The position numbers and the translations under genes were made by a program. The notes under the pieces are model-generated. The model was not told the origin of the DNA and did not search any database. It saw only the letters and a list, made by a program, of their open reading frames with translations. A DNA stretch of 34,637 nt from a virus, in IMG/VR virus record IMGVR_UViG_3300034082_003540, positions 1 to 34,637 of that record; one strand, 5' to 3'. Numbering within the stretch: position 1 is the stretch's first letter; the number at the start of each line of letters is the position of its first letter. This document shows, piece after piece, positions 1-21,503 of this stretch.

Positions 1-128
1 AGGCTCCAACGACAACCACTTTGGCACCGACTACAACAACGACGGAGGCTCCAACGACAACCACTTTGGCACCGACTACAACAACGACGGAGGCTCCAAC
101 GACAACCACTTTGGCACCGACTACAACG
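1..128 (+). repeat. Tandem 45-bp coding repeat
   Basis: About 2.8 near-identical copies of a 45-bp unit encode EAPTTTTLAPTTTTT. Units start at 45 and 90, and the one before runs off the left edge. The copies are identical at nucleotide level over their shared length, which points to recent expansion by slippage or recombination rather than to selection on protein composition alone. Confidence 0.9.
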
Positions 129-719
129 CCGACGTTAACATCAACACCAACGTTGACATCAACTTCAACGCCGACGTTAACATCAACACCAACGTTGACA
201 TCAACTTCAACGCCGACGTTAACATCAACACCAACGTTAACATCAACTTCAACGCCGACGTTAACATCAACACCAACGTTAACATCAACACCAACGTTAA
301 CATCAACACCAACGTTGACGCTTACAGCGACACCAACTCCGTCCGGAGAAACGACCACGACAACCACTTTGGCACCATTTTCTTTTTCGGGGGGATCACT
401 GGCCTATTCCAGTACAAATGACGGGGGATGCTCACCGGCTGGTAATGTAAGGCTACAATCATTTAGTAATGATATCTACAATCAAGCTAATGACGCTATT
501 AATGCATCTGGTATGCCAACCGAAGATAAAACCGACGCCTTGGCAGTTGTTACCGCGCTGGGTAATTACGCAGCCTCCGCCCCTGTACCGGTAGGGGTTT
601 ACAACGTGACAATTGGGTCATTCGACGGATCTTCGCAAGTCACATTCGAAGATATAACGCCAGAACCCGGTTATTGCGCAACCTACGCAGTGAATATAAC
701 GATAACACAAACCACATAA
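1..719 (+). CDS. Mucin-like Pro/Thr-rich stalk protein with C-terminal globular domain (5' truncated)
   Basis: The reading frame is open from the first complete codon at position 3, so the gene begins upstream of the window and its true start is not visible. The visible part opens with 15-residue repeats (EAPTTTTLAPTTTTT), changes to 14-residue repeats (PTLTSTPTLTSTST), and ends in a non-repetitive domain of about 115 residues containing two cysteines (GGCSPAG and GYCATYA). There is no membrane segment. The build, a low-complexity stalk carrying a small globular head, is typical of phage fibres and adhesins or of secreted proteins. I do not recognise the head domain. The frame stops at 717-719, but a Thr-rich tail continues in another frame (see 719-805), so the C terminus may be shortened by an indel. 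A virion or adhesin role is inferred from the architecture and the neighbours. Confidence 0.6.
   Translation, partial: APTTTTLAPTTTTTEAPTTTTLAPTTTTTEAPTTTTLAPTTTPTLTSTPTLTSTSTPTLTSTPTLTSTSTPTLTSTPTLTSTSTPTLTSTPTLTSTPTLTSTPTLTLTATPTPSGETTTTTTLAPFSFSGGSLAYSSTNDGGCSPAGNVRLQSFSNDIYNQANDAINASGMPTEDKTDALAVVTALGNYAASAPVPVGVYNVTIGSFDGSSQVTFEDITPEPGYCATYAVNITITQTT
129..332 (+). repeat. Tandem 42-bp coding repeat and 18-bp sub-repeats
   Basis: Three 42-bp units (129-170, 171-212, 213-254) encode PTLTSTPTLTSTST. They are followed by shorter PTLTST units of 18 bp up to about 332. The 42-bp unit is itself built from PTLTST blocks plus an extra ST dipeptide. The nested periodicity suggests stepwise expansion, and copy number is likely to vary between related phages. 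Confidence 0.9.
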
Positions 720-805
720 GAGTAGGCGGATGCGAAACTAGAACAACAACCGAGGCTCTGCGTAAAAGTGAGACGCCCACTACAACAAATATAAATGAAG
801 CTTAA
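719..805 (+). other. Thr-rich 3' tail in a shifted frame after the first gene
   Basis: Past the stop at 717-719 the DNA still reads as Thr-rich protein in another frame: RVGGCETRTTTEALRKSE then TPTTTNINEA, stopping at 803-805. The composition matches the stalk upstream. The end resembles the DNA after the second stalk gene (2637-2663): both hold ACTACAACA followed by ATATAAAT. It may be the displaced true C terminus (frameshift, sequencing error or recoding). Alternatively the TATAAAT at 790-796 may be a T4-late-like promoter core for the next gene. Confidence 0.45.
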
Positions 806-841
806 TTACTAAACTGTTCGTTAATTACAATACAATACAAT

Positions 842-1060
842 ATGATAACTATAATAAATAAAACTCCAACCGATGTTATAAATGCATTCCGAGCAAATCG
901 CCCGAGCAACAACACAACGTCTTTGATATTAGTAAAAGCTGAAACGGATTTTCCAATTTTTGGTTTTCACGTCGTTGGCGACGAAATATTCATTATAACG
1001 AGTGACCGAAGTGAAGTGCTCGTCGATACAGCGGATCGCATCGAGTTGAGAACGACCTAA
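842..1060 (+). CDS. Small hypothetical protein between two stalk-protein genes
   Basis: This 72-residue protein starts at the ATG at 842 (MITIINKTPTDVINAFRANR). It has no signal peptide or membrane segment. The second half alternates hydrophobic and polar residues (FPIFGFHVVGDEIFIITSD), suggesting a small beta-rich fold. No Shine-Dalgarno sequence precedes it; the leader is a short ACAAT-repeat stretch. It is sandwiched between two Pro/Thr-rich structural-type genes and ends 16 bp before the next start, so it is probably co-expressed with them. A fibre-assembly helper or small capsid/tail decoration protein is possible, but the family is not recognised. Confidence 0.6.
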   Translation: MITIINKTPTDVINAFRANRPSNNTTSLILVKAETDFPIFGFHVVGDEIFIITSDRSEVLVDTADRIELRTT

Positions 1061-1076
1061 TAAGTATTCATTTTTC

Positions 1077-2561
1077 ATGCCAAGAGGATTGCCAATCAAT
1101 AAATCGCCGGAGGAAAAAGTATTTGGGATCGTCGGAGAAGTTGTGTCTACAGATGAAGGTGAAGTATACACAAAAGAAACTAACGATACCAGAAACATAG
1201 GTTGGGATCAATTGTTGGCGTATTTACAAAGTCCGACCCCAACAGCAACACCGACGATAACTCCGACCACTTCTAGGCCATTTGTAATCAGGACCACTCC
1301 AACTCCAACTATAACTCCGACGTTAACATCGACCCCAACACCGACTCGATTACCTTTTATAGGACCAACTTTTACGCCAACACAAACACCGACGTTGACA
1401 CCGACTCAAACACTAACCAGTACCCCAGCCGCGTCGGCTATACCGTTTGTAACTCCAACACCAACCTCGACCACGTATTATGATATCGGAGCAACCATAA
1501 CTTGGTCCGTGGAACAATTGGTTTCCCAAACCAGCGGCGACGGCTATCTCGTTGGAGACACGCTGAAGGCAAATTATACTATAACAAATGAAGGCAATGT
1601 TTCTAGCTTCGAAGTTAGAGTGAGAAGTGGAATTCCGGACCCATATGGCGGCGGGTGGATAACAATATCCGGACCATCATACACATACATTGCACCGACG
1701 GCGGGATATTATCAGCTCGGTATATTAGTCAATTATATGGATGGTCGATCAATTTCAATCGAGTCTTCGGTTATAACAGTGGTATCATTTGACAGGCCAG
1801 TTGTCACAGTCGATCCATCAAATGTGACAAGAGGAAAAGCAACGCTATCAACCATTTCTATTTCTGAAGGATTTGGCGGACTTGCTACTGTAACAAGCTG
1901 GGGTTCCAACGGAGCATTTACATTTGAATCAAACACTCAAAGAGTCTGGGACACTTATTTAGAAAATAATGTATCTGGGTTTGGAACTTTTTATGTAATA
2001 CCGTTTAAACGTTTATCGAATGGTAGAACTATCACCGGTGCCGCCGTTCCTGTAAAAGTACAAAGACAGACGTATTATATAACATATACACTTGATGGTA
2101 CTGGGTATATAAAATTCTCTTATGTAGACGCCGATGGCGCGTCGGCAACACTTGAGCGATATGGTTCTCCGTATCAAACAACTTATCCGGCCTACACAGA
2201 TCCATGTGCATCTGCCGTCGCGCTACTCACACCCGGTGGTGCTGGAAGATCCGTTGAATTGACAACAATCGAATGCGGCGCATCAGCTCCAACCCCGACA
2301 CCGACACCAACATCAACACCTACGCCAACACCGACGCCTACACCAACGCCCACCCCAAATTGTACCTCATATGATGTAGACGCTCAATTTGATGGTATAT
2401 TTGACTATGTAGTAGATGCTGCTTGGACTAATTGCGATGGTAGTTCTGGGTTCTACATACTGTCTATGCCAACCTTTTTCAATACTGGGCCGATTTGTGC
2501 AATCACCGGAACATTCGTTGTTAACACTGGATTTTTAAACACCGGTAGCGATTGCCAATAG
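1077..2561 (+). CDS. Multidomain Pro/Thr-linker protein with beta-sandwich domain (putative virion fibre/decoration protein)
   Basis: This is a 494-residue protein in modules. A short N-terminal module (about residues 1-52) is followed by a long PT-rich linker (about 53-135). Next comes a beta-rich region (about 138-400) that includes a stretch like a CARDB/Ig-type sandwich (GDTLKANYTITNEGNVSSFEV). A second, almost pure PT linker (about 403-427) leads to a C-terminal module of about 65 residues with cysteines. There is no clear signal peptide. The stalk-and-bead layout suits an extended virion fibre or head decoration, which is inference. The stop at 2559-2561 is followed by Thr-rich coding potential in another frame, as after the first stalk gene. 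The PT linkers are plausible O-glycosylation targets for the enzymes encoded just downstream. Confidence 0.65.
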   Translation: MPRGLPINKSPEEKVFGIVGEVVSTDEGEVYTKETNDTRNIGWDQLLAYLQSPTPTATPTITPTTSRPFVIRTTPTPTITPTLTSTPTPTRLPFIGPTFTPTQTPTLTPTQTLTSTPAASAIPFVTPTPTSTTYYDIGATITWSVEQLVSQTSGDGYLVGDTLKANYTITNEGNVSSFEVRVRSGIPDPYGGGWITISGPSYTYIAPTAGYYQLGILVNYMDGRSISIESSVITVVSFDRPVVTVDPSNVTRGKATLSTISISEGFGGLATVTSWGSNGAFTFESNTQRVWDTYLENNVSGFGTFYVIPFKRLSNGRTITGAAVPVKVQRQTYYITYTLDGTGYIKFSYVDADGASATLERYGSPYQTTYPAYTDPCASAVALLTPGGAGRSVELTTIECGASAPTPTPTPTSTPTPTPTPTPTPTPNCTSYDVDAQFDGIFDYVVDAAWTNCDGSSGFYILSMPTFFNTGPICAITGTFVVNTGFLNTGSDCQ

Positions 2562-2663
2562 GACGCCCCCTGCATCAACAACAGCAGCGGAAGTTCCAAC
2601 AACCACGACCGAGGCTTCCTACGAAGGTGGGGGGATACTACAACAGATATAAATCAAGAGTAA
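2562..2663 (+). other. Out-of-frame Thr-rich tail with G6 tract after the second stalk gene
   Basis: In the +1 frame from 2563 the DNA reads TPPASTTAAEVPTTTTEASY, a typical stalk tail. After a run of six G (2629-2634), the original frame reads DTTTDINQE and stops at 2661-2663. One extra G would join the two pieces. The end aligns with the tail of the first stalk gene (ACTACAACA then ATATAAATC). It is either a C terminus broken by indels, a slippery or phase-variable tract, or a conserved non-coding element with a TATAAAT box at 2648-2654. The rest of the gap to 2742 is AT-rich and shows nothing clear. Confidence 0.45.
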
Positions 2664-2742
2664 AATTTAATTATTATATCTTGCTTTTTAAAAAAAAACT
2701 GTCATATTTCTGTATATATAATAGTAAAAATAATGGTTATAT

Positions 2743-4044
2743 ATGCAGAACAATAAAATATTCATTCAAATTGCAGCGTATCGCGACCCACAGTTGGTCC
2801 CAACAATCCAAGATTGTATAGCGAATGCCAAATATCCGGAGAATCTCCACTTTTGCATAGCATGGCAACATGGACCAAACGAAAAAATAGATGAAATTGC
2901 TACGTTGCCGAATGTAACAATTATTGACATTCCATATATGGAAAGCAAAGGTGCTTGCTGGGCAAGAAATCAAATCCAGCAAAGATATACGGGCGAAGAG
3001 TATACCATGCAGCTTGACTCTCATCACAGATTTGTAAAAGATTGGGACGAGTTGATCATCGGAATGTATAAACAATTACAAGAAATGGGGCATGCTAAAC
3101 CTTTACTCACCGGTTATATTCCGTCGTTCGATCCAGAAAATGATCCCAGTGCAAGAATTCAAACTCCATGGAAAATGGATTTTGACAGGTTCATACCGGA
3201 AGGTGCAATTTTCTTTTTGCCAGCATCAATAGATGATTGGAAAGACCGTACTTCTCCACTCCCATCCAGATTTTACTCCGCGCACTTTTGCTTCACCGGT
3301 GGAGAATTTTGCAAAGAGGTTCCACACGACCCAGAGTATTATTTTCACGGCGAAGAAATTAGTATCGCCGTCAGAGCATTTACACACGGATACGACTTAT
3401 TTCACCCACACAGAGTTATTGCTTGGCACGAATACACTCGCAAAGGAAGAACGAAGCATTGGGACGATCACGTCGGCTCGAACGTTAATTTGGTAAAAGA
3501 TAAAAAAGATTGGGGTGCTAGAAACAGTGAATGTCATGCAAGAAACCGTAAACTTTTCTCTATGGACGGTGAGAGTATCGATTCTATAGAATGGGGGGTG
3601 TATGGATTCGGAAATGTAAGAACGCTGCGCGACTATGAAAAATATGCAGGTATATGTTTCAAAAAGCGCGGTATTCAACAGGAGACTGTCGATAAAAAAT
3701 ACCCGCCGAACAATTGGAAGAAATACTCTTCGGAGCAAGAATGGCTAAAATCTTTCATCTCCATATTCAGACATTGCATTGATTTACAACCATTCCAAAT
3801 TCCAGAAAAAGATTACGAATTCTGGGTTGTAGCTTTTGAAAAAGCAGATGGTACCTCGTTGTTTAGAAAAGATGCCGATAAAGCAGAGTTGGATGCAATT
3901 ATTGCCGATGGACTAAATCCCAACGGAGACAAATATATGAAACTCTGGCGTGAATTCAACTGCGAAGAGAAACCACATCACTGGGTTGTTTGGCCGTACA
4001 GCAAATCCAAGGGATGGTGCGAACGCATCGTTGGAAATCTTTAA
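2743..4044 (+). CDS. Glycosyltransferase, Skp1-type GlcNAc-transferase family (PF11397-like)
   Basis: This 433-residue protein has no membrane segment. The N terminus IFIQIAAYRDPQLVPTIQDC, the block GACWARNQIQQRYTGEEY (about residues 70-87) and QLDSHHRF (about 90-97) match the signature of the family that includes the Dictyostelium Skp1 hydroxyproline GlcNAc-transferase. In DSH (92-94) the acidic residue and histidine take the place of the DxD metal-binding motif. The family transfers GlcNAc from UDP-GlcNAc, in the characterised eukaryotic case to hydroxyproline. Bacterial and viral members are mostly uncharacterised. It lies right after two Pro/Thr-rich proteins and 8 bp before another glycosyltransferase gene, forming a glycan block. 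The substrate is unknown, and stalk proteins, surface glycans or other targets are possible. No Shine-Dalgarno sequence is visible. Confidence 0.82.
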   Translation: MQNNKIFIQIAAYRDPQLVPTIQDCIANAKYPENLHFCIAWQHGPNEKIDEIATLPNVTIIDIPYMESKGACWARNQIQQRYTGEEYTMQLDSHHRFVKDWDELIIGMYKQLQEMGHAKPLLTGYIPSFDPENDPSARIQTPWKMDFDRFIPEGAIFFLPASIDDWKDRTSPLPSRFYSAHFCFTGGEFCKEVPHDPEYYFHGEEISIAVRAFTHGYDLFHPHRVIAWHEYTRKGRTKHWDDHVGSNVNLVKDKKDWGARNSECHARNRKLFSMDGESIDSIEWGVYGFGNVRTLRDYEKYAGICFKKRGIQQETVDKKYPPNNWKKYSSEQEWLKSFISIFRHCIDLQPFQIPEKDYEFWVVAFEKADGTSLFRKDADKAELDAIIADGLNPNGDKYMKLWREFNCEEKPHHWVVWPYSKSKGWCERIVGNL

Positions 4045-4052
4045 TCTAAAAG

Positions 4053-7000
4053 ATGAATATTGTATTGACTCAATTCTTCACTCCAAATGTTTCATATGGA
4101 GAGTTTAGTAAAGCCATAAACGAAAAGTACTGTCAAGAAAAGGGGTACACTTACCATCTTGAACCGGACGAACAAAAAATTCGTTCCGGTCTTGAGGGAC
4201 GTGCGGCGACGTGGTATAAACCAAAACTATTGTTGGAAGTATTAGAAACTAAAAATCCAGATTATGTAATGTTCTTGGACGCAGACGCGATTGTATTAAA
4301 CAACAATCACAAAATTGAAGATTTCATCATAGATGGAATCGATATTTTGGCGGCGGATGACCACGGACCAAGTAAATTAAACGCGGGAGTTTTTATAATT
4401 AAAAACACCGCTTGGGCAAAAGATTATCTTCAAAAGTGGTGGGATATTTGTAATGAATTCCCACAATACGCAAATGGCCTGTGGCATGATCAAACTTGCT
4501 TTGGCCTTTTAATGGACAGAACACCCGACGTGAGTTCACACGTAAAGATTATAAATAATAATATTATAAATTCAAATCATGAGAACGATTATTGTTTTAT
4601 ATTCCATGCATTTGCCTTTGGATCTTATAAAAATAGAACCATAGACTTGATATACTACAATAAGTTTGGATTGAAACCACCGACGCACAGTGGAATGCCA
4701 TTAAACACATTGGCCGATTTATATGCCGTCGATAAAGGTTCGCAGGGCCACAACTATATAAACAAAGTATATGAGAATTTGTTGGTACACACCAGACACA
4801 ACGTGAAGAAGTTTGTTGAAATCGGCGTGTATCAAGGCAATTCTCTCAGAATGTGGAGAAGCTTTTTTGACGGAAATACTATTGTTGTTGGTGTTGATGC
4901 TGATGCACCTACCGTTAAACGTGGCACAGAAAACTGTGAACTTATACTGTGTGATCAAAATAAAGAATCCGACTTAATTGTTTTAGCCGACAAAATCAAA
5001 GGATGTGATGTTATATTGGACGACGGTTGCCATAAAATGGCGGCGCAACAACGAAGTTTAGCATTATTGTTCAGGTCATTGGCCGTGGGTGGGACATACA
5101 TAATTGAGGATTTACACACCAGCCTTGAATGTAAAAATCCACACAAAGCAGTATTTGGGTGGGGAGATGCCAATAAGACTACAACACTCGAACTACTTGA
5201 AAATTATACAGCAACCGGTAAAATAAAGTCTGAGTATTTGTCTACTACCGAGATTAAATACCTAGAGCAAAACATAGAGAGGGTCGAAGTATTCAGATTG
5301 AGTAGTGAAAGTATAACTAGTATTATCACCAAGAAACTTGTTCCTGTTGATATCCCAGTCGTTGAAAATACTCAGGGAGTGGCTGAAATCGAACACACTG
5401 GAGAAAATATTGGTATAGTATATCACGTATATTGCGTAGGATTTTGGGAAGAACTAGTAAAGGAGCAATTACTCAAGCTTAAAAATACTGGATTATACGA
5501 CGCGGCCAGAGTATTATGGGTGACCATCAACGACCTTAACAATAATAAGGCGAGAATTGATAGGATATTTGCAAAGTATCCAAAATTTAAGATCGAATAT
5601 AGAAATGATAACGGCGCAGAGGCTCCCGGTATACAAAAGGTGTATAGTATATGCCAAGGCGATACCGACATGAAGGTATTATATTTTCACGCTAAGGGGG
5701 TAAGCAATACATACAGGTCAGTTGAAAATAAACAAGAAATATGCTACCGCAAGATAGAAGGTAGCAAGAGTTGGAGATTGTGTATGGAACAGTTCTTGGT
5801 AAATGGGTGGAGAGATTGCGTCAATCGTCTTGATTATTATGATCTGGTTTGCACCACGCACACCGATGCTTGGGTGTGGGGGAACTTTTGGTGGGCAAAT
5901 GCAGATTATATCCGCGCCCATCCATTTCCAAGCGGTCAATCTAGATGGTTTTATGAGTACTGGATTACGACAAATGATGTGATCCCTGTACCAACCGTCT
6001 TTGAATATTATCATTTCTCATACTTGGCACTGATCAGTAAAGTTCCAAGTTATTTGTACAATGGCACTCTCCCAGATGGACAAAAAATCGAATTGATATC
6101 CGCAACATATGGTGCACTGGATATACAGATGGACGAGGGATATCCCGTTCCACCCGATGATACGAGCGATAAAATAGCAGACGTAACCGAGTATGTTCGA
6201 AAAAACTTGGAATTGAATAACTCTATTGGATTCGATAAGAGAGTCCAATCACAATTTCCAGCTGGATTTGATCCGTTCTTCGGCGGAAGAAAACATTTGA
6301 CTATAGATTTTAGCGTTTCTGGTCAAGAAGAGTATGTATCACTAACATTTAGAGATGCCGATGCTGATTTTAATCTTTATCAAAAAACTGCTGAACTACC
6401 TCAAACCAAAAGAGTCAGCCGCGACAATTCAAAGCCAACTAACGTCGGCAAAAAGAAAATCGCCTTTGTTTCTCCAATGGAATTTGAAAGAAACGGTCAG
6501 AACATTCCGGATATGTATATAAAATGCATACGCCCGTTCTTTTTGACCGCAAAAAAGAACGTATTTTCAAACAATGAGAATTGCGACGTAGACTTTATAT
6601 TGCTGACAAACAGCAATTACACATGTGATTTGGATTTTGTTAAGACTATAAGAACACACGAGGAAACAACTGGATATTCTTACGGATGTCTCACGAAGCT
6701 TCTTCTTTTAGAGCACATACCTAATGAGTACGACTATATATTTGTTGCAGACATCGACTCTATCTTTCCATCGGAAATGAAGGATAGTGTTTTTGCGGCA
6801 CCTTTTGTTTTCTTAGATCACTACTTCACACCGTCGCTGAACTCTATATTGCAGATTGATACAACGCACGTTACAATAGATGCCGACGTTTCGAATGAAC
6901 ATTGGACAATGGATACATTCTTCGGAGGAACATATGAAATGATGATGGGCCTCAATAAGTTTGCAAGAGAACAGCACAATAAATATTTTGGTAAAATAAC

Positions 7001-7316
7001 AGAAGGTTATGGATTCTATAGTAAATATCCTGGGGAACTTTTCATATTAAAATATGTATTTGAAAACAAAATAGAACACAAGAGACTATCGGCTTGCTGT
7101 GAATTGGATTCAAATTCCGCAACAAAAAATTGGCATATCGGGGAATTACCGAATAACTTGGAAAGCAAGAATGGACTAGGTCTTCAATTCTTAAATCATT
7201 ATTCTCAGCTGCATCAAACAAAGATGTGCTTGGATATATTGGACGAAATTGTCAAATATATTCTCGATCAACCGTCAGCACTTCCAGAATACAAAGCATA
7301 CAAAGACAAACTATAA
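4053..7316 (+). CDS. Multidomain glycan enzyme: GT34-like transferase, methyltransferase, third transferase-like region, GT6-like transferase
   Basis: This 1087-residue fusion has at least four parts. Residues 1-200 form a GT-A transferase resembling the GT34 (GMA12/MNN10) type, with FLDADAI (DAD 76-78) and LNAGVFIIKN. Residues about 228-360 form a Rossmann methyltransferase: FVEIGVYQGNSLRMW, GVDAD, then DVILDDGCH and GGTYIIEDLH, like sugar O-methyltransferases. Residues about 452-690 form a conserved-looking region (VLYFHAKGV, WVWGNFWWANADYI) seen near capsule and rhamnan transferases. After a linker module (about 705-770), residues 800-1050 resemble GT6, the ABO blood-group transferase family: FVADIDSIFP (DID 900-902) and TFFGGTYEMMMGL. 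GT6 genes are known in bacteria and in at least one cyanophage. It starts 8 bp after the previous gene and ends 3 bp before the next. Module calls are from motifs only; those for the third region and the linker are weak. Confidence 0.75.
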   Translation: MNIVLTQFFTPNVSYGEFSKAINEKYCQEKGYTYHLEPDEQKIRSGLEGRAATWYKPKLLLEVLETKNPDYVMFLDADAIVLNNNHKIEDFIIDGIDILAADDHGPSKLNAGVFIIKNTAWAKDYLQKWWDICNEFPQYANGLWHDQTCFGLLMDRTPDVSSHVKIINNNIINSNHENDYCFIFHAFAFGSYKNRTIDLIYYNKFGLKPPTHSGMPLNTLADLYAVDKGSQGHNYINKVYENLLVHTRHNVKKFVEIGVYQGNSLRMWRSFFDGNTIVVGVDADAPTVKRGTENCELILCDQNKESDLIVLADKIKGCDVILDDGCHKMAAQQRSLALLFRSLAVGGTYIIEDLHTSLECKNPHKAVFGWGDANKTTTLELLENYTATGKIKSEYLSTTEIKYLEQNIERVEVFRLSSESITSIITKKLVPVDIPVVENTQGVAEIEHTGENIGIVYHVYCVGFWEELVKEQLLKLKNTGLYDAARVLWVTINDLNNNKARIDRIFAKYPKFKIEYRNDNGAEAPGIQKVYSICQGDTDMKVLYFHAKGVSNTYRSVENKQEICYRKIEGSKSWRLCMEQFLVNGWRDCVNRLDYYDLVCTTHTDAWVWGNFWWANADYIRAHPFPSGQSRWFYEYWITTNDVIPVPTVFEYYHFSYLALISKVPSYLYNGTLPDGQKIELISATYGALDIQMDEGYPVPPDDTSDKIADVTEYVRKNLELNNSIGFDKRVQSQFPAGFDPFFGGRKHLTIDFSVSGQEEYVSLTFRDADADFNLYQKTAELPQTKRVSRDNSKPTNVGKKKIAFVSPMEFERNGQNIPDMYIKCIRPFFLTAKKNVFSNNENCDVDFILLTNSNYTCDLDFVKTIRTHEETTGYSYGCLTKLLLLEHIPNEYDYIFVADIDSIFPSEMKDSVFAAPFVFLDHYFTPSLNSILQIDTTHVTIDADVSNEHWTMDTFFGGTYEMMMGLNKFAREQHNKYFGKITEGYGFYSKYPGELFILKYVFENKIEHKRLSACCELDSNSATKNWHIGELPNNLESKNGLGLQFLNHYSQLHQTKMCLDILDEIVKYILDQPSALPEYKAYKDKL

Positions 7317-7319
7317 TAT

Positions 7320-9656
7320 ATGTTAATCAATACCATAAAAGACTGGAAATATACTCAAGTAGACGACCGCGCATTAACTAACAGTGGTTGCATTGTTGAT
7401 GTTGGATGTTCCGGTTGGGACTGGTGTGAATTTTTCATTGGAAAAAAACGAGTTGTGGGAATCGACCCATACGAAAGTAAAAAAAATGGAGTGGAATTTT
7501 TTGAAGGATTGCTAGGGCCGATCAACGGTCGGTCTAGCGTGATCAGAAAAGGTGCAAGTAGTCTTGCCATAGGCGAGATGGATCTTGGCGATGATAGCAC
7601 CGTGTTGTTTCCTATGTTGAATTGGAAAACTTTCTGTAAAAAATTCAATATCGACAGAGTATCGATATTAAAAATTAATATTGAGGGTGGAGAATATGCC
7701 TTATTGAACAGTTTGGATGTTGACGATTTTAAGAAAATAGATCAAATCGCTGTTAGTTTTCATGACTTCGAAAACCCAAAATTTAAAGATCTCACATACG
7801 GATCAATCGAACTGTTAAAAAAATCTGGATTTGATGTACAACAAATTGAACCAAAATGGGGATGGTATCTGGCAATAAAAAATAATCCTGAGCCAGAACC
7901 AGTACAAATTTTAACTGAACCTTCAAATATAAAAACGACAATGAATAAGAGTAAAACTACCATCGTGACCGGATTGTGGGATCTAGGCCGAGGAAATCTC
8001 ACTGGCTGGGCCAAGCGCGATTTTCAACAATATAAAAATAAGTTTTTCGAACTTCTTAAAGCGGACGTGAACTTAGTAATATGGATTCCGAGGGAACTAG
8101 AGGAAGACGTGTGGAAAATTCGCAGTAAAGAAAAAAATAATACACAAATTTATTTCAAAGAATTGGCGGATTTTAAAACATGGTTCCCATTTTTCAAGGA
8201 AGTTCAACAAATCAGAAACAACGAGTCGTGGAAGAATTTTGCTGGCTGGTTGGCGGAATCACCACAAGCGGCTCTGGAATATTACAATCCGATGATGATG
8301 TGTAAGATGTTTATGGTGAATGACGCCGCCATATTAAATCCTTTTAATTCTAAGTATTTTTATTGGATGGACGGCGGCCTAACAAATACCGTAAACTCCG
8401 GTTATTTTATACACGATGGCGTACTTGACAAGATATGCGAATACACAGAGTATCATAAGAAATTCACGTTCATATCTTATCCATACGACGGAAACGATGA
8501 AATCCATGGATTTGAACGGAAAGCAATGGCGCAATACTGCAACACAGACTTTGTGAAATATGTCGCCAGAGGCGGTTTCTGGGGAGGTAAGAAAGACATG
8601 GTTCATAAAATGAACGATGAGTACTATGGTATTCTTAGAGACACGTTATCAAAAGGATTGATGGGCGCGGATGAATGCTTGTTTACTATACTATGCCACC
8701 GTTTACCAAAAGAAATACAGAGATTTGAAATAGAAGGAAACGGGTTGGTTTGGCCATTTTTTGAAATGATTAAAAACTTCGAAGTACCGGAAGCGACCGA
8801 CTTGGTGTTATATAAAGAAGGTAGCGCCGATGGCAAGGTTGCGTATATTCAATCCAAAGAAGAAGTTGAAATGAATCGTCGCGGTGATGGCGTTAATTTG
8901 TATGTAGTCACATTTAACTCGCCGCCCCAACTTCAAATTTTGCTCGATACTATCCAAGAATCCAATCCAGAATTACTGAGCAAGACAACCAAATACCTAA
9001 TAAACAATAGTATAGATAGAGGTACCGATGCTGGATATGATACGATTGCTGCAAAATACGGGTTCACCCAAATTAAAGAAGGAAATTTGGGAGTTTGCGG
9101 TGCAAGGTCATGGGCAGCAAAACATTTCAATGAAAGTAATGCTAAATACATTGTTTGGTTTGAAGATGATATGCTCATGGAAAAAACTCAAAGGTTGTGC
9201 AAGAATGGATTGAATATGCACTGTGATAATTGGATGGAAAAGTGTATAGAAATCGTTGACAACGAGAATTTAGACTTTGTGAAAATATCATTCACAGAAT
9301 TCTACGGGGATCACCACGAACAATGGGCTTGGTATAACATACCAGTAGATTTGAAGCAGAAATATTTTCCAACGGGCGAACACAGACTAACGGTTGAGCA
9401 AACTGGTTGCTACAAGGGACTTTCATATTTGATAGGCGAAGTTTATTACTCAAATTGGCCGTCGGTAATGACTAGAGCCGGTAATTATAAAATATTCCTA
9501 GAAACGGAATATGCGCACCCATTTGAGCAGACAATCATGAGCCATACCTTCCAGTTGACCAAGAAGGGTAGAATGCGTAGTGCGGTTCTAATGGCATCTC
9601 TTGTAAACCACCATCGTACATACCACTACTCCAAAGAAATCCGTAAAGAGTGTTAA
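7320..9656 (+). CDS. Fusion of FkbM-type methyltransferase, HtrL/YibB-like domain and GT-A glycosyltransferase
   Basis: This 778-residue protein has three parts. Residues about 20-190 look like an FkbM SAM-dependent methyltransferase: CIVDVGCSGWDWCEF is the SAM loop and ILKINIEGGEYALLN (about 116-130) is the family's hallmark acidic motif. Residues about 212-485 match the HtrL/YibB family (TTIVTGLWDLGRGNL near 213; FYWMDGG near 347), found in LPS and capsule loci and probably GT-A-like. Residues about 522-778 form a GT2-like GT-A domain with VVTFNSPPQ at its start and FEDDM (614-618) as the metal-binding acidic motif. It follows the previous gene by 3 bp. The three domains imply glycan building plus methyl capping, but acceptor and sugar are unknown. 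The fusion appears intact, with no internal stop. Confidence 0.75.
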   Translation: MLINTIKDWKYTQVDDRALTNSGCIVDVGCSGWDWCEFFIGKKRVVGIDPYESKKNGVEFFEGLLGPINGRSSVIRKGASSLAIGEMDLGDDSTVLFPMLNWKTFCKKFNIDRVSILKINIEGGEYALLNSLDVDDFKKIDQIAVSFHDFENPKFKDLTYGSIELLKKSGFDVQQIEPKWGWYLAIKNNPEPEPVQILTEPSNIKTTMNKSKTTIVTGLWDLGRGNLTGWAKRDFQQYKNKFFELLKADVNLVIWIPRELEEDVWKIRSKEKNNTQIYFKELADFKTWFPFFKEVQQIRNNESWKNFAGWLAESPQAALEYYNPMMMCKMFMVNDAAILNPFNSKYFYWMDGGLTNTVNSGYFIHDGVLDKICEYTEYHKKFTFISYPYDGNDEIHGFERKAMAQYCNTDFVKYVARGGFWGGKKDMVHKMNDEYYGILRDTLSKGLMGADECLFTILCHRLPKEIQRFEIEGNGLVWPFFEMIKNFEVPEATDLVLYKEGSADGKVAYIQSKEEVEMNRRGDGVNLYVVTFNSPPQLQILLDTIQESNPELLSKTTKYLINNSIDRGTDAGYDTIAAKYGFTQIKEGNLGVCGARSWAAKHFNESNAKYIVWFEDDMLMEKTQRLCKNGLNMHCDNWMEKCIEIVDNENLDFVKISFTEFYGDHHEQWAWYNIPVDLKQKYFPTGEHRLTVEQTGCYKGLSYLIGEVYYSNWPSVMTRAGNYKIFLETEYAHPFEQTIMSHTFQLTKKGRMRSAVLMASLVNHHRTYHYSKEIRKEC

Positions 9657-9698: not shown

Positions 9699-10397
9699 AT
9701 GAAATCTAAATTACATTTTGGGATGGAGTTGACAGAAACGGAAATCGATGAGAATTATGAATATTTCATCGATTTCTTGAAAGAAAGTTTTTCTGGCGAA
9801 CGGTTGGAAAAGCTTTTGGTTATGTACAATGAAGAAAATATGGGACTGCAATTGGCAGTCGCGCCCGCATCGACGAGAATGAATTTCCACTGTGCTTGGC
9901 CCGGTGGATACATTCAACATGTCATGCACGTCGAAAAAGCGTCTAGAGGTATCCAAAAATTTTACTCTGCCATCAATGGAACGGTTGATTTTACGGATGA
10001 GGAGCGGATTTTTGCTGCCCTGCACCACGACCTCGGTAAACTTGGCGATGACACTGGTCCTCAATATATCTGTAATGACAGCGATTGGCATGTCAAGAAT
10101 CGCGGCGAAATTTATAAAATGAATCCGGCACTTCAATATATGCGAGTTCCCGACCGTGCTTTGTATATGTTGCAGCGGTATAATGTAAATGTAACGTGGA
10201 AAGAAATGCTTGGGATTAAACTTGCCGACGGCTTGTATGACAAAGCATGCGAAGAATATTTTATGTCGCATAATCCGGATAGAAATTTGAAGACAAATCT
10301 TCCGTATATTATCCATGTATCCGATCTTCTGTCGTGTAGAGCGGAAAGCGATCAATGGAAAGCTTATAACACAGGCGACACCGGTACGATACTTTGA
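9699..10397 (+). CDS. HD-domain phosphohydrolase
   Basis: This 232-residue soluble protein carries an HD metal-binding set: a histidine in GGYIQHVMHVEK (H74 or H77), LHHDLGK (HD at 110-111) and a late aspartate in IIHVSDLL (D209). This is the H...HD...D pattern of metal-dependent phosphohydrolases, which act on nucleotides, cyclic nucleotides or (p)ppGpp. The substrate cannot be read from the sequence. An intrinsic terminator follows within about 30 bp, so it is probably the last gene of the upstream transcription unit. A nucleotide-pool or alarmone-cleaving role during infection is possible; this is inference. Confidence 0.75.
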   Translation: MKSKLHFGMELTETEIDENYEYFIDFLKESFSGERLEKLLVMYNEENMGLQLAVAPASTRMNFHCAWPGGYIQHVMHVEKASRGIQKFYSAINGTVDFTDEERIFAALHHDLGKLGDDTGPQYICNDSDWHVKNRGEIYKMNPALQYMRVPDRALYMLQRYNVNVTWKEMLGIKLADGLYDKACEEYFMSHNPDRNLKTNLPYIIHVSDLLSCRAESDQWKAYNTGDTGTIL

Positions 10398-10421
10398 GTG
10401 TATAATTGGCACACCGTAGTG

Positions 10422-10453
10422 ACAAAAGGGAGCATTACAAATGCTCCTTTTTT
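10422..10453 (+). terminator. Intrinsic terminator after the HD gene
   Basis: An 8-bp perfect stem, GGAGCATT (10429-10436) with AATGCTCC (10440-10447), closes a 3-nt loop. It is followed by six T (10448-10453) and preceded by four A that can extend the stem. It separates the glycan/HD block from dnaK. Confidence 0.85.
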
Positions 10454-10518
10454 GTGTCTTCATAGGTAAATGGTGTGACAGACTAGTTGGCACGAATAAT
10501 GATAATAGTCATATCGAC

Positions 10519-10547
10519 TTGACAATCCGATTAACTCGGTTTATATT
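10519..10547 (+). promoter_or_regulatory. Sigma70-like promoter for dnaK
   Basis: TTGACA (10519-10524), a 17-bp spacer and TATATT (10542-10547) make a near-consensus housekeeping promoter. Transcription would start near 10554, leaving a leader of roughly 14 nt before the ATG at 10569 with no Shine-Dalgarno sequence. It lies directly after a terminator, which supports independent expression of dnaK by host polymerase. Confidence 0.7.
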
Positions 10548-10568
10548 GAGTCTAATTTTTATAAAACT

Positions 10569-12428
10569 ATGAGTAAAACAAACGACATTATTATAGGCGT
10601 GGACCTTGGTACCACAAATTCATGCGTTGCCGTGTGGCAATCTGGCGAGTCGACGGTTATCCCAAATGCGGAGGGTGCTCGTACCACCCCATCCATCGTG
10701 GCGTTCACAAAAACAGGAGAACGGCTAGTTGGTCAAGCCGCTAAACGTCAAGCGGTAACTAATCCAAAAAATACTATTTTTTCTGCCAAGAGACTCATTG
10801 GTAGAAAGTTCAGTGAGGTACAATCAGAAATCAAGAATCTTCCGTACAATGTCGTAGAGGGTCCAAATGGAGACGCTTGGTTTGAAGTAACTGAAAATGG
10901 TAAACAGAAAAAGTACTCGCCGCAACAAATCGGGGCATTTGTACTGGGAAAGATTAAGGCAGACGCGGAGGCATATCTTGGTCAGCCTGTTACAAAGGCA
11001 GTAATTACCGTCCCTGCGTATTTCAACGACTCCCAGCGCCAAGCAACTAAAGACGCAGGAACCATAGCGGGATTGGAAGTTTTGCGCATCATCAACGAGC
11101 CAACTGCCGCGTCCCTTGCATACGGTCTCGACAAGAAGAAAGATGAAAAGATTGCTGTGTTCGATTTGGGTGGCGGCACGTTTGACGTAACGGTACTTGA
11201 AATCGGGGATGGTGTATTTGAAGTGAAGTCTACCAATGGCGACACTCGTCTTGGCGGTGACGATTGGGATAAGACATTGATGGATTATTTAATCTCGGAG
11301 TTTAAGAAAGAAAACAGCGTTGATTTGAGTAAGGATAATACGGCACTCCAACGTTTGCGCGAAGAAGCCGAGAAGGCAAAGATTGCATTGTCTTCTGCAA
11401 CAACATACGACATAAATCTACCATTTATTACCGCCGACGCGACTGGACCAAAGCATCTTTCCATTCAACTATCAAGGTCAAAGATGGAACAGGTGTGTGA
11501 GGCGTTATTTGAAAGAATGGATGGTCCATATAAAAACTGTCTAAAGGACGCCGGAATTAGTAGTAACGATTTGAACGAACTTGTACTTGTAGGTGGCATG
11601 ACCCGTATGCCCAAGGTTATTGAGTACGCCAAGAAGTTTGGTGGTAAGTCTCCAAACCAAGGTGTGAATCCGGATGAAGTTGTTGCTATTGGCGCAGCCG
11701 TTCAGGGTGGCGTGTTGAAGGGAGAAGTTACTGACATATTGCTATTGGATGTAACTCCACTTACTCTTTCTATAGAAACCGCCGGTGGAATATCCACGCC
11801 GATGATTTCGAGGAACACGACGATCCCAGCAAAGAAATCACAAGTATTCTCGACTTATAGCGACAATCAATCTCAAGTTGATATTGTTGTTCTCCAAGGC
11901 GAGCGACCGATGTCCAAAGATAATAAAAAGCTTGGTAATTTTAAGCTCGATGGTATTCCACCGGCACCACGCGGCATACCTCAAATTGAAGTTTCATTTG
12001 ATATCGATGCAAATGGTATCTTGCATGTTTCCGCAAAAGATCTCGGTACACACAAAATTCAGAACATAACTATTCAAGGTTCGTCCGGACTATCGGCAGA
12101 CGAGATCGAGCGCATGACGAAAGAAGCCGAGATAAACGCAGACAAGGACAAGGAACTCAAGGAAAATCTTGAAACTAAGAATTCCCTAGATAACATAATA
12201 TATGGGTGGGAGAAACAATTGAAAGACAATAAATATGAAGAATCTGTTGCCACTGAAATCAAAATGGGTATTGACAAGGGCAAGGAATCACTACAGAGTG
12301 GTGATGTTGGAAAGATGAAGGATGCTATATCAGAACTCAGTAAGTTGGGCGAACTTGTTTACAAAAACAAATCATCTAGTCAAAAGGGTACACCCGATGA
12401 CCCTATTGAGCCGGAAATAGTGAATTAA
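10569..12428 (+). CDS. dnaK: Molecular chaperone DnaK (Hsp70)
   Basis: This 619-residue protein is close to the length of cellular DnaK (about 638). All three Hsp70 signatures are visible: [10 protein letters not shown] near residue 9, [16 protein letters not shown] near 197, and [13 protein letters not shown] near 338. The conserved interdomain linker ([19 protein letters not shown]) and a full substrate-binding beta domain ([34 protein letters not shown]) follow, with a helical lid ending in EPEIVN. It therefore looks functional: an ATP-driven chaperone for nascent and misfolded proteins, normally working with DnaJ and GrpE, neither of which is encoded here. It has its own promoter and is bracketed by two terminators, like a phage moron. 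Help with host proteostasis or virion-protein folding is inferred. Phage-encoded DnaK is uncommon. Confidence 0.97.
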
Positions 12429-12596: not shown

Positions 12597-14153
12597 ATGA
12601 AATTACTGGCGTATTTTGTATTATTAACCGCACTTGTCATAGCGGCGAGCGGTGCTTACTTCAGTATCATTGGACTGACATTGCTGTTCGTTGGCGGTGG
12701 AGTTTCAATCATAGTTATGGGCACAGCTCTGGAAATTGGAAAATTGGTAGCGGCGACATTCCTAAAACAAAAATGGAATGACATAAGTGTCTGGATGCGA
12801 ACATACTTGTTGCTTGCAACACTGTTGTTAATGGTCATAAACTCAATCGGAATATATGGGTATCTCAGCGCGGGTTATACAGAAACATCACTAAGTGTGC
12901 AAGGGTTTGAGCGTCAAATAGAAGTAAACACTGCCAAAATAAAAGAAATTGATAAAGAAATAATAGATTTGCGCCAAGACACACACAATCAAGCTGAAAT
13001 AGTTGACATAAACGAAAATAGAAAAAAATTCATAGACCAGCAACTGCAATTAATAAGTCAGCGGAACCAACAAATAGAGAAATTAAGATCTTCCGAAAAT
13101 AGTAATAAGGATGCTTCCGGCGACATCGCGTCTGCTAAACAAGCACTTGATGTTTCAAGAGCGTCACTGGATTCCGATTCCGCGAAGGAGTTGGAGCAAA
13201 TAAAAATGTATAATTCCCGTCTTGAAATATTAGACCAAGAGGTGAAGAGGTGGATGGACGAAGGAAGTGGAAACTTGTTCAAAAAGAATGGAATGGAAAT
13301 GGCAAGAGAAACCAAGGAGTTACAAAATAAAGAGCGTGATGCGATAGATGTCCAGATGAAATCTTCCCAAGACAGAATAGAAAAACTCCGAACCCAATAC
13401 AATGACCAAGTGAAAGAATATAACGACCGAGTGGTTTTAATAGAATCACGTGCTAACGCACAGCGTGCCGAACTTGATGCAAATATAAAGTTGTTGGAAA
13501 AAGAAAATTCTGATACGGTGGCCGCTATATCGGCTTATAACAAAGAATGTGACGACAGGATTTCGGATTTAAGTAGTAAAAAAACTGAAATGGTTGAGCA
13601 GAATAAAAATGAAATATCAAAAAACCAAGATACCATCCAACAATTATATATTCAAAATGACCAAATAAAAGAAAAAATACTTCACACGGACGTTGGTACC
13701 TTTAAGTTTATAGCTAAAAATTTAAATATTCCACTCGACAGTGCGGTTAATTATTTTATATTAATGATTATGATTGTATTTGATCCATTGGCAGTAGTGT
13801 TGGTTTTAGCATATAATATAATGATTCAGAAAGATAAAAAAGAAACGAGTATCACGTCGCTACCAACAGTTGACGATGCGGAGAAAAAATCAGACTATAT
13901 TATAACAACAACAGGGTTGCCAGTTGTTCCTACAGAGGAACCGGTGACCACACCGGCACCGGAAGAACCGACGGTGGATGTTAATACAAGCACGACCGAG
14001 ACAAGTACTACCTCCGCCCCCATGGAAACTATAGGGGAAACAACAACCACTATACAACCGGATCCATACAGTGAAAAATTAAAACGTAGAGCGCCCCTAC
14101 CACCTTCGCACGTTCAAATGCGAGATTACGAACATTTCAGTCGTCCATCGTAA
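12597..14153 (+). CDS. Membrane-anchored coiled-coil protein with Thr/Pro-rich tail
   Basis: This 518-residue protein has a membrane-rich N terminus (about residues 3-100; hydrophobic stretches at about 4-24, 26-50 and 69-92). A long charged coiled coil follows (about 100-370; repeated EIDKEIIDL, QLQLISQRNQQIEKL, IEKLRTQYNDQV). Another hydrophobic segment (about 383-410; YFILMIMIVFDPLAVVLVLAY) and a Thr/Pro-rich tail (about 430-490) come next. The layout resembles membrane proteins of unknown function that I recall from marine T4-like phages, and loosely DUF4407. It probably sits in the host inner membrane with its coiled coil on one side. Lysis control, superinfection exclusion or membrane remodelling are possibilities, none shown by the sequence. 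The tail resembles the stalk linkers. It follows the dnaK terminator, and its own AT-rich leader has a TATTTATTATATAAAT stretch (12559 onward). Confidence 0.7.
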   Translation: MKLLAYFVLLTALVIAASGAYFSIIGLTLLFVGGGVSIIVMGTALEIGKLVAATFLKQKWNDISVWMRTYLLLATLLLMVINSIGIYGYLSAGYTETSLSVQGFERQIEVNTAKIKEIDKEIIDLRQDTHNQAEIVDINENRKKFIDQQLQLISQRNQQIEKLRSSENSNKDASGDIASAKQALDVSRASLDSDSAKELEQIKMYNSRLEILDQEVKRWMDEGSGNLFKKNGMEMARETKELQNKERDAIDVQMKSSQDRIEKLRTQYNDQVKEYNDRVVLIESRANAQRAELDANIKLLEKENSDTVAAISAYNKECDDRISDLSSKKTEMVEQNKNEISKNQDTIQQLYIQNDQIKEKILHTDVGTFKFIAKNLNIPLDSAVNYFILMIMIVFDPLAVVLVLAYNIMIQKDKKETSITSLPTVDDAEKKSDYIITTTGLPVVPTEEPVTTPAPEEPTVDVNTSTTETSTTSAPMETIGETTTTIQPDPYSEKLKRRAPLPPSHVQMRDYEHFSRPS

Positions 14154-19165: not shown

Positions 19166-19576
19166 ATGTCTACCGCAGTAAAAACTCCAATCGGTTTAAC
19201 CTTTCCCATATCACATGGTCCTATGGGTTATTTTAACCAAAGTTTTGATGTGGTCGATCAAGTAAAATCAAATCTTTATCTTTTATTAAATACCAAAAAA
19301 GGAGAACGAAGATTTAATCTGGACTTTGGTTCTTCGCTCTATAACGTTTTATTTAATTTTAATAATGAAGAATTACAAACTATTTTGGAAAGTTCTATAA
19401 AAAAGGACGTGAGAAAATGGCTGCCATATGTCGATATAAAAAGTGTGACAATCAGTGATTCGGACGAAGAAAAAGATGGGTATCATGTAAAAATATCCGT
19501 TGTATTTACCGCAGACAATGTTGGTATAACATCTCCACAAAATATTACATTGGTTGCCGCACAAGGAAATATATGA
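19166..19576 (+). CDS. gp25: Baseplate wedge protein, gp25-like
   Basis: This 136-residue protein matches T4 gp25 and the related sheath-initiator family (GPW_gp25) in size (T4 gp25 is 132). The core GERRFNLDFGSSLYNVLFN (about residues 49-67) corresponds to the family's EPR-type motif, here ERR, and the N terminus GLTFPISHGPMGYF is the usual lead-in. It nucleates the contractile sheath by sitting on the wedge. It overlaps the gp6-like gene by 4 nt (ATGA), an order kept in many contractile tail systems. Confidence 0.9.
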   Translation: MSTAVKTPIGLTFPISHGPMGYFNQSFDVVDQVKSNLYLLLNTKKGERRFNLDFGSSLYNVLFNFNNEELQTILESSIKKDVRKWLPYVDIKSVTISDSDEEKDGYHVKISVVFTADNVGITSPQNITLVAAQGNI

Positions 19577-21459
19577 TACTAGAAACTCAAAAGTCATTTC
19601 AACCGGCAAAAAAAGATATAAAATATCTAAACAAAGACTTTTCCCAATTGAAAAAGTCTCTAGTTGATTTTGCTAAGGTATATTATCCTAACACATACAA
19701 GGACTTCAGTGAAGCGTCGGTCGGTATGATGTTTATCGAAATGGCAGCTTACGTTGGAGATGTTTTGTCTTACTACGTAGACTATCAATTCAAGGAGTCG
19801 ATGCTTGTAAATTCTGAAGAAAGACAAAATATCATAGACTCGGCCCGATCCCTCGGGTACAGAGTAAAAGTGTCAACCCCGTCGGTAACTTCACTTGATG
19901 TTTATCAGCTCGTGCCATCCAAGACGGATGCAAACGGAGACATCGTCCCCGACTTAACTTATGCTCAAATAATAAAGCCGGGCATGACTTCTATTAGCGA
20001 TAATGGCGTAAGTTTCATAACAAACTTCCCAGTTGATTTCACAGTTGACACAAAAAATGATCCATTGGAAATATCGGTGTATCAAAGAAACTCGTCTGGA
20101 CAACCTGAATTTTATGTTTTGAAAAAGACGGTTACAGCCTCAGCTGGGCAGATAATAACAAAAACCGTGCCCGTGTCGGACCCAACATCATTCTACAGAT
20201 TGGAATTAGCCGAGGCCAACGTCATCGGCATAATGGACATATACGATTCCGATGGAAACCGTTGGTATGAAACAGAGTATTTGGCTCAAGATATGGTTCC
20301 GATAGATTCGGAAAACATATTCAAGAATGATATGGTGATGTCGAAATATAGAGACACAGCTCCGTTTTTAATAAAGTTCTTGAGAACCTCAAGAAGATTC
20401 ATCACGGGTACAAATTCTGACGACACGACTTTTATAGAATTTGGATCCGGAACAAACGTGAAAGACGACGAAATAATAATTCCAAATATAAATACAGTTT
20501 CAAATCAATCGCTATTTAGAACGGAAAATGTTTCGTATGACCCAGCGAACTTTTTATCATCGAAATCATACGGGCAAGCACCTGCGAATACAACATTGAC
20601 AATACGATACGTTGTCGGTGGTGGCGTCACAAGCAATGTAAATGCAAATTCGATAACAAACGTAACGTCTGTTGAATTTTTTGGGGATATAACGGAGCTT
20701 CCAAACCTAGAGCAAAATCTAACAAGTACAGTTAGACGTTCTATAAAAGTCAATAATTCTATACCCGCCGTCGGCGGCATGGGCAGTGAATCAAATGATA
20801 GTATCAGAACAAACGCCCTCGCAAATTATTCCGCTCAAAATAGAGCGGTAACTCAGCAAGACTATATAGTCAGATCGTATGCAATGCCTTCGAAATATGG
20901 ATCTATCGCAAAGGCATACGCAATAGCAGATCAAACCGTGGATACTTCAAACACCAATCACAATCCGTTTGCGGTCAATTTATATATACTCTGCTATAAC
21001 AGTCAAAAGAAACTAATACCATCAAACCTTGCTATCCAAGAAAATCTAAAAACCTATCTAAATCAATATCGGATGTTAACAGACTCAGTCAACATAATAG
21101 ATGGTTATATTATAAACATAGGGGTAGATTTTGGAATAATTGTATATAAAAACTACAACAAGCGAGATGTACTAACCAACTGTTTGACTACAGCCCAACA
21201 ATATTTTGACATAGACAATGCTCAATTCTGCCAACCAATCAATCTAAGTAGACTGGAGCTAGAAATAAGTAGAGTCGACGGCGTACAGTCTGTAAATTAC
21301 CTAAAACTTAAAAACTTGACCGTCAGAGATGGTGATTATTCCCCATACGAATACAATATTCAAAGTGCAACTGTTGACAAGGTCATATACCCGTCGTTAG
21401 ATCCATCGGTGTTTGAAGTAAAATATCCAACCAAGGATATTGTCGGAAAAGTGCTATAA
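19573..21459 (+). CDS. gp6: Baseplate wedge protein, gp6/gpJ-like
   Basis: This 628-residue protein is close to T4 gp6 (660). The N terminus (VYYPNTYKDFSEASVGMMFIEMAAYVGDVLSYYVDYQ) carries the F-x-E...GxxxIEMxAYVGDVLxYYxD signature of gp6-type wedge proteins. A central segment (about 400-430; GGMGSESNDSIRTNALANYSAQNRAVTQQDY) matches the conserved baseplate_J core. gp6 forms the inner ring of the baseplate that drives its hexagon-to-star change. The gene is translationally coupled to gp25 and is followed by a 71-bp gap with a TATATTTATA box before the next gene. Confidence 0.88.
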   Translation: MILETQKSFQPAKKDIKYLNKDFSQLKKSLVDFAKVYYPNTYKDFSEASVGMMFIEMAAYVGDVLSYYVDYQFKESMLVNSEERQNIIDSARSLGYRVKVSTPSVTSLDVYQLVPSKTDANGDIVPDLTYAQIIKPGMTSISDNGVSFITNFPVDFTVDTKNDPLEISVYQRNSSGQPEFYVLKKTVTASAGQIITKTVPVSDPTSFYRLELAEANVIGIMDIYDSDGNRWYETEYLAQDMVPIDSENIFKNDMVMSKYRDTAPFLIKFLRTSRRFITGTNSDDTTFIEFGSGTNVKDDEIIIPNINTVSNQSLFRTENVSYDPANFLSSKSYGQAPANTTLTIRYVVGGGVTSNVNANSITNVTSVEFFGDITELPNLEQNLTSTVRRSIKVNNSIPAVGGMGSESNDSIRTNALANYSAQNRAVTQQDYIVRSYAMPSKYGSIAKAYAIADQTVDTSNTNHNPFAVNLYILCYNSQKKLIPSNLAIQENLKTYLNQYRMLTDSVNIIDGYIINIGVDFGIIVYKNYNKRDVLTNCLTTAQQYFDIDNAQFCQPINLSRLELEISRVDGVQSVNYLKLKNLTVRDGDYSPYEYNIQSATVDKVIYPSLDPSVFEVKYPTKDIVGKVL

Positions 21460-21503
21460 TATTTTACCATTCGCTTTTAGAATGTATATTTTTCGGCGAG
21501 TTG

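Follow-up and report, generated by a model that had tools for sequence, protein, structure and literature searches.

The viral record IMGVR_UViG_3300034082_003540 of IMG/VR is a 34.6-kb stretch that may be a fragment of a genome and is treated here as a whole (the window). At its left end, two Thr/Pro-rich (PT) proteins (3–719 and 1077–2561) are followed by a GlcNAc-transferase homologue of the GT60 family (2743–4044) and two glycosyltransferase (GT)/methyltransferase fusions (4053–7316 and 7320–9656), all on the + strand. This region is probably a phage-encoded O-glycosylation cassette for the phage's own Thr/Ser-rich surface proteins, with the outer sugars varying. On balance, and with less assurance, we also favour the view that it represents mucin-type O-glycosylation in a phage, in which a fixed polypeptide initiator is combined with an exchangeable elongation cassette and the stalk glycan is switched as in bacterial O-antigens. 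The mucin-like character of the two proteins and their position ahead of the three enzymes had been described in a first-pass annotation of the window and were confirmed by residue composition, TRF and Pfam; open reading frames (ORFs) were found at each of the positions given there, including 12597–14153 and 21501/21531–22781.

Thr/Pro-rich proteins and the transferases beside them

The ORF at 3–719, whose left end is open at the contig edge, contains 81 Pro, Thr or Ser (P/T/S) residues in its best 100-residue stretch, and that at 1077–2561 contains 61; tandem arrays were located by TRF at 1–337 and 2289–2358. Both encode candidate acceptors, and PT ORFs occupy the place equivalent to the first in close relatives. 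The second protein begins with a short N-terminal domain of the pattern VFG..G....D.G..Y.K....N.GW, which resembles the N-terminus of PT proteins adjacent to GT60 genes in relatives, and its sole PHROG match is one of unknown function that covers the PT part. Judging from their neighbours and these N-terminal patterns, the PT proteins would be located on the virion. PT linkers were also present, as the first-pass annotation had noted, in the tail of a membrane coiled-coil protein (12597–14153, + strand) and in the ORF at 21501/21531–22781, but they are weaker (43 and 34 P/T/S per best 100 residues), and the label 'DNRLRE-like' given to the latter found no support in Pfam. Searches of phage records by tblastn with the PT protein and with the fibre-like protein of locus L136 returned nothing useful.

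The protein encoded at 2743–4044 is the predicted glycan initiator. It belongs to PF11397 (CAZy GT60), which it matches with a score of 245.2 bits (cut-off 21). Its structure model (pLDDT 94.2) is nearest, among solved folds, to the mucin-type ppGalNAc-transferases of GT27, with Z scores of 19.1–22.1 over 263–286 residues compared to 16.3 for the next family; no solved Skp1 enzyme structure was present among these matches. As modelled, the enzyme has the GT27 catalytic-domain fold, which points to a structural relationship of GT60 with the mucin enzymes. By sequence it falls outside GT27, since no GT27 chain in the PDB was found at E values up to 1 with either a single sequence or a profile. 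A ricin-type lectin domain was not detected by Pfam (E 0.01), and the C-terminal 100 residues were modelled as a different, beta-rich part. Residues D92-S93-H94, G203-E204-E205 and H229 are invariant across 30 relatives and may be the counterparts of two GT27 motifs, the DxH that binds metal and GGEN...H.

The acceptor in Skp1 is hydroxyproline, and the first-pass annotation had hinted at the same residue for the phage enzyme. This hint was not supported: the prolyl-hydroxylase family PF13640 is absent from 24 of the 25 carrier records, which favours Thr/Ser over hydroxyproline, although the host might supply a hydroxylase. The only carrier record with PF13640, in three copies, is G012 (locus L045; 32797–35529 and 48144–51248), which lacks a PT protein and encodes a Gly-Ser/Thr repeat protein of ~1000 residues; a hydroxylated acceptor is conceivable there. 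Two further observations concern the GT60 family itself. Lone short members of ~310 residues (L136, 5714–6646; L116, 13197–14129) are without the beta-rich C-terminal part, and PT proteins are absent at those loci. GT60 relatives are also present in many bacterial genomes, and in the bacterial contigs L606 (4382–7990), L610 (4381–7998), L588 (6460–8001) and L579 (7164–7883) the GT60 relative is immediately preceded by the end of a PT-rich ORF, which raises the possibility that the two are paired in bacteria or prophages as well.

The ORF at 4053–7316 encodes a multidomain fusion in which a GT34-like domain and a methyltransferase are joined to a middle domain and a C-terminal part. Pfam identified GT34/DUF273 and a sub-threshold Methyltransf_24, PHROG assigned it to phrog_21658 (methyltransferase), and the middle domain (residues 449–761) occurs as separate genes in loci L047 and L049. 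The protein at 7320–9656 matches the FkbM methyltransferase and HtrL_YibB families in Pfam, and its part beyond FkbM comprises two GT-A-type domains: residues 211–484 have a GT6/blood-group-like fold and residues 520–770 a B4GALNT1/GnT-I/POMGnT1-like fold (Z 13–14.5), folds that leave the substrates undefined. The N-terminal 200 residues, which form the FkbM part, were poorly modelled, and sequence searches for solved relatives of this enzyme gave none that was useful.

Association of GT60 enzymes with Thr/Pro-rich proteins

The first-pass annotation had named co-occurrence of these enzyme families with PT-rich proteins in related phages as a check on its idea, and the outcome was strongly positive. 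ORFs were scored as PT-rich from a 40-residue window with 60% P/T/S and a minimum of both P and T. Their density around GT60 genes is 74 per Mb, compared to 1.7 per Mb in a random set of 123 viral loci (two ORFs in 1145 kb), which is more than chance would give. Around the last cassette enzyme (F1, the YibB-type two-domain protein), the density is 87 per Mb, with PT ORFs in 59/79 loci compared to 2/123 random loci. The association was also seen from the side of the repeats. PF11397 was present in 11 of 50 viral records >20 kb picked solely by a (Pro-Thr)5 codon pattern and in 0 of 74 control records picked by two arbitrary 15-mers (the positive control, phage XacN1, was detected in the second control search); among records ≥40 kb the counts were 10/30 and 0/25, respectively. 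DNA coding for TPTPTP was found in 15/18 larger GT60-positive records but in 0/16 GT60-negative records, the latter including SCTP-2, RaK2, CBB, GAP32, Atu_ph07, KVP40 and phiM12, named phages whose lack of GT60 rests on tblastn of all phage records. PT repeats as a product of chance or as a general trait of big phages were therefore rejected, because random records and GT60-negative jumbo phages are without them. In non-redundant GT60 loci, a PT ORF lies ≤2.5 kb upstream in 24/58 with a long enzyme and 1/10 with a short one, a difference that is not significant alone. A (G-S/T-S/T)3 codon pattern, which misses AGY serine codons, was not used as a test.

A second protein shows a similar trend. 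The membrane coiled-coil protein, a possible second acceptor, has a PT tail in 9/15 relatives with a long GT60 at the locus, compared to 1/20 otherwise.

In the lineage of the window, PhoH is followed by a slot with genes for fibre-like proteins and then GT60. Almost every locus with a long GT60 in this slot has PT ORFs, whereas with a lone ~310-residue GT60, or none, the neighbours are Ser/Ala-rich and fibre-like and PT is nearly always absent. The slot of L152 combines a long GT60 with a protein that matches Hoc-like head-decoration and tail families, and PT is absent. PHROG scans of most of the fibre-like neighbours were uninformative. The position of the short GT60 and of L152 beside non-PT surface-type proteins indicates that the tie between GT60 and surface proteins is wider than PT repeats, and an adjacency due to PT alone was rejected, given that the short form adjoins non-PT fibre-like genes. 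Through the PhoH slot and the PT proteins around the cassette, transferase genes are tied to virion-protein genes, as expected of virus-encoded virion glycosylation.

A homologous cassette exists in a cultured phage, XacN1, whose ORF334 is a GT60 homologue and which encodes more than a dozen PT proteins, among them the products of ORF232–236, 350, 369, 370 and 372. Proteomic analysis of XacN1 identified at least two glycoproteins, for which its authors suggest phage enzymes; in the parts of that account drawn on here, the glycoproteins are not tied to the PT proteins (PMC5852040). A run of adjacent PT-rich ORFs in XacN1 (AP018399.1, 124048–133110) is annotated just as hypothetical, and the phage has been described without visible tail fibres.

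Layout and apparent exchange of the cassette

The first-pass annotation had missed that the cassette has constant ends and a variable interior, and that it is replaced between near-identical phages. We collected 80 viral loci with a GT60 relative; among named phage records, tblastn of all phage records found such a relative only in XacN1, RAS14 and CM1. Clustering of the ORFs placed GT60 first and F1 last, with differing genes between them. Across 73 complete cassettes, the interior comprises 229 genes of 47 families in 40 arrangements, and in the window it is fused into the single ORF 4053–7316. The interior families include GT25, a PLOD-type GT, a GT10 fucosyltransferase, GT34, GT2, a carbamoyltransferase and a methyltransferase, and several have no Pfam match. 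No lipid-carrier, flippase or polymerase family was found among the ~18 commoner interior families, which were those scanned by Pfam. A search based on F1 alone returned a second set of 79 loci. In 62 of them the retrieved sequence includes GT60, which is upstream of F1 in 61.

Comparison of closely related loci revealed where the interior changes. From the upstream genes through GT60 (ORF 10001–11251) to base 11249, L053 and L055 share 95.6% identity; beyond that base they are unrelated save for 285 bases within F1 at 74%, after which they are 96% identical again. Similarity likewise ends at the GT60 end in L071/L072 and just before it in L009/L018, and 8 of 18 pairs whose GT60 enzymes are 90–95% identical have no interior family in common. 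Near-identical phages that differ past the GT60 stop codon look like the outcome of cassette exchange.

The remainder of the window contains T4-type baseplate wedge proteins (19166–21459), a peptide deformylase, a RuvC-like resolvase and a full-length DnaK/Hsp70 (10569–12428), near whose place some relatives carry Hsp20. A large protein at 29535–32681 has five FG-GAP repeats and a weak dockerin-type match and is possibly a virion adhesin. The product of 9699–10397 matches phrog_5889, with a weak HD-domain match in one relative; it often follows the cassette, and at L152 it is upstream of GT60. A megablast search of phage records with the window gave nothing useful.

Proposed mechanism, alternatives and known systems

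From the observed gene content and order, families, predicted folds, co-occurrence and interior swaps, we infer the acceptor, sugars, timing and benefit as follows. The cassette probably acts in the host cytoplasm during virion production. The GT60 enzyme would put the first sugar on Thr/Ser of repetitive, extended stalk regions in the phage's own surface proteins, chiefly the adjacent PT proteins, and the later enzymes, with GT34-like, YibB/GT6-like and GnT-I-like domains and two methyltransferase domains, would extend and cap the chain. Because the first and last enzymes are fixed and the middle is exchanged between related phages, close relatives should bear different glycans, as bacteria vary their O-antigen. 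Such glycans could shield the stalks from proteases or alter recognition of the particle by hosts, rival phages or grazers. The proposal of the first-pass annotation that the phage glycosylates its own PT stalks holds as far as a glycosylation system linked to mucin-like proteins, on the strength of co-occurrence, fold, neighbours and XacN1; the PT stalks would be its presumed acceptor.

Several observations weigh against this interpretation. TPTPTP was present in just 6/18 further, mostly small GT60-positive fragments; the 12 without it may lack acceptor genes because they are incomplete. Three larger GT60-positive records (G012, G016 and G020) are also without TPTPTP, and in the first two there are long Gly-Ser/Thr repeat proteins instead, which, at a guess, may fill the same role. 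The lone short GT60 stands beside non-PT Ser/Ala-rich fibre-like genes, and in several clades the cassette is not beside PT genes. The second half of the last enzyme weakly matches a phage DNA-glucosyltransferase family (phrog_842, beta-glucosyl-HMC-alpha-glucosyltransferase; E 6e-4). The records are mutually related, so that the counts are not phylogenetically independent and p-values are descriptive only, and for the window phage the acceptor and glycan are presumed and the activity is predicted from family names and folds.

An unlikely alternative, though the best of those considered, is that the cassette remodels the host envelope (lipopolysaccharide or capsule) during infection, for example to exclude competitor phages, with PT as flexible linkers common in such large phages. 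This has been the interpretation of cyanophage glycosyltransferase clusters that vary between related viruses (PMC7824862), a variable interior would suit any surface glycan, and the bacterial GT60 relatives agree with it. Against it, GT60 adjoins virion-type genes in the window's lineage, its fold is that of protein-modifying enzymes, large GT60-negative phages are without TPTPTP, and the annotated interior families include no lipid-carrier or flippase family. Marginally less probable still is that virion proteins are glycosylated on the capsid, the tail tube or folded fibre domains and that PT repeats hitch-hike as linkers of variable fibres. GT60 does stand beside fibre-like genes even without PT repeats, and mycobacteriophage glycans lie on capsid and tail-tube subunit C-termini (Freeman et al. 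2023, as cited in PMC12619734). However, PT repeats follow the cassette in separate lineages, including XacN1 versus RaK2-type relatives, and an unrelated protein, the membrane coiled-coil protein, gains PT tails alongside the long GT60. Glycosylation of phage DNA against restriction is very improbable: phage enzymes of this kind exist and the phrog_842 match would suit them, but base-making enzymes are mostly absent (PF00303, of the thymidylate synthase/hydroxymethylase type, in just 5/25 records, where it could be plain thymidylate synthase, and not in the 297-kb relative G003; Tet/JBP, PF12851, in 0/25, though the control of that search gave no signal), and both the fold of GT60 and its genomic neighbourhood suggest that proteins are modified.

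Glycosylation of virions has been documented in a handful of phages and in chloroviruses; among the papers covered, our literature searches found no description of a widespread, exchangeable cassette for it with a link to mucin-like stalks. If O-glycosylation of the phage's own stalks is the correct reading, large aquatic phages would have a hidden layer of surface variation that bears on adsorption, recognition and particle stability, and their cassettes would be a source of compact enzymes that O-glycosylate proteins with no need of a secretory pathway. The reading is directly testable, as homologous genes are present in three phage isolates, XacN1, RAS14 and CM1.

Among known systems, eukaryotic mucin-type O-glycosylation by GT27 enzymes is alike in the fold predicted for the first enzyme (Z 22), in a Thr/Ser/Pro-rich presumed acceptor and in sugar-by-sugar chain extension; the window enzyme differs in that its sequence does not recognisably match solved GT27 chains, in that Pfam finds no ricin-type lectin domain, and in its phage, presumably cytoplasmic setting. 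The Skp1 GlcNAc-transferase shares the sequence family (245 bits); its acceptor is hydroxyproline, and the hydroxylase family is missing from 24/25 carrier records. Fused GT/methyltransferase proteins like those of the window are also found in chlorovirus PBCV-1. That virus encodes enzymes which glycosylate one of its virion proteins without using the secretory route of the host, but it is a eukaryotic virus and the acceptor is the major capsid protein Vp54 (cited in PMC5852040). The mycobacteriophage system resembles the window in its phage-encoded glycosyltransferases acting on virion proteins (Freeman et al. 2023), although its acceptors are capsid and tail-tube C-termini, and the portion of PMC12619734 that cites it describes neither mucin-like repeats nor an exchangeable cassette. 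Bacterial O-antigen and capsule loci share with the cassette an architecture in which conserved ends flank exchangeable transferase genes; the cassette differs in lying in a phage genome, in its probable protein acceptor and in its annotated interior families, which include no lipid-carrier enzyme, flippase or polymerase.

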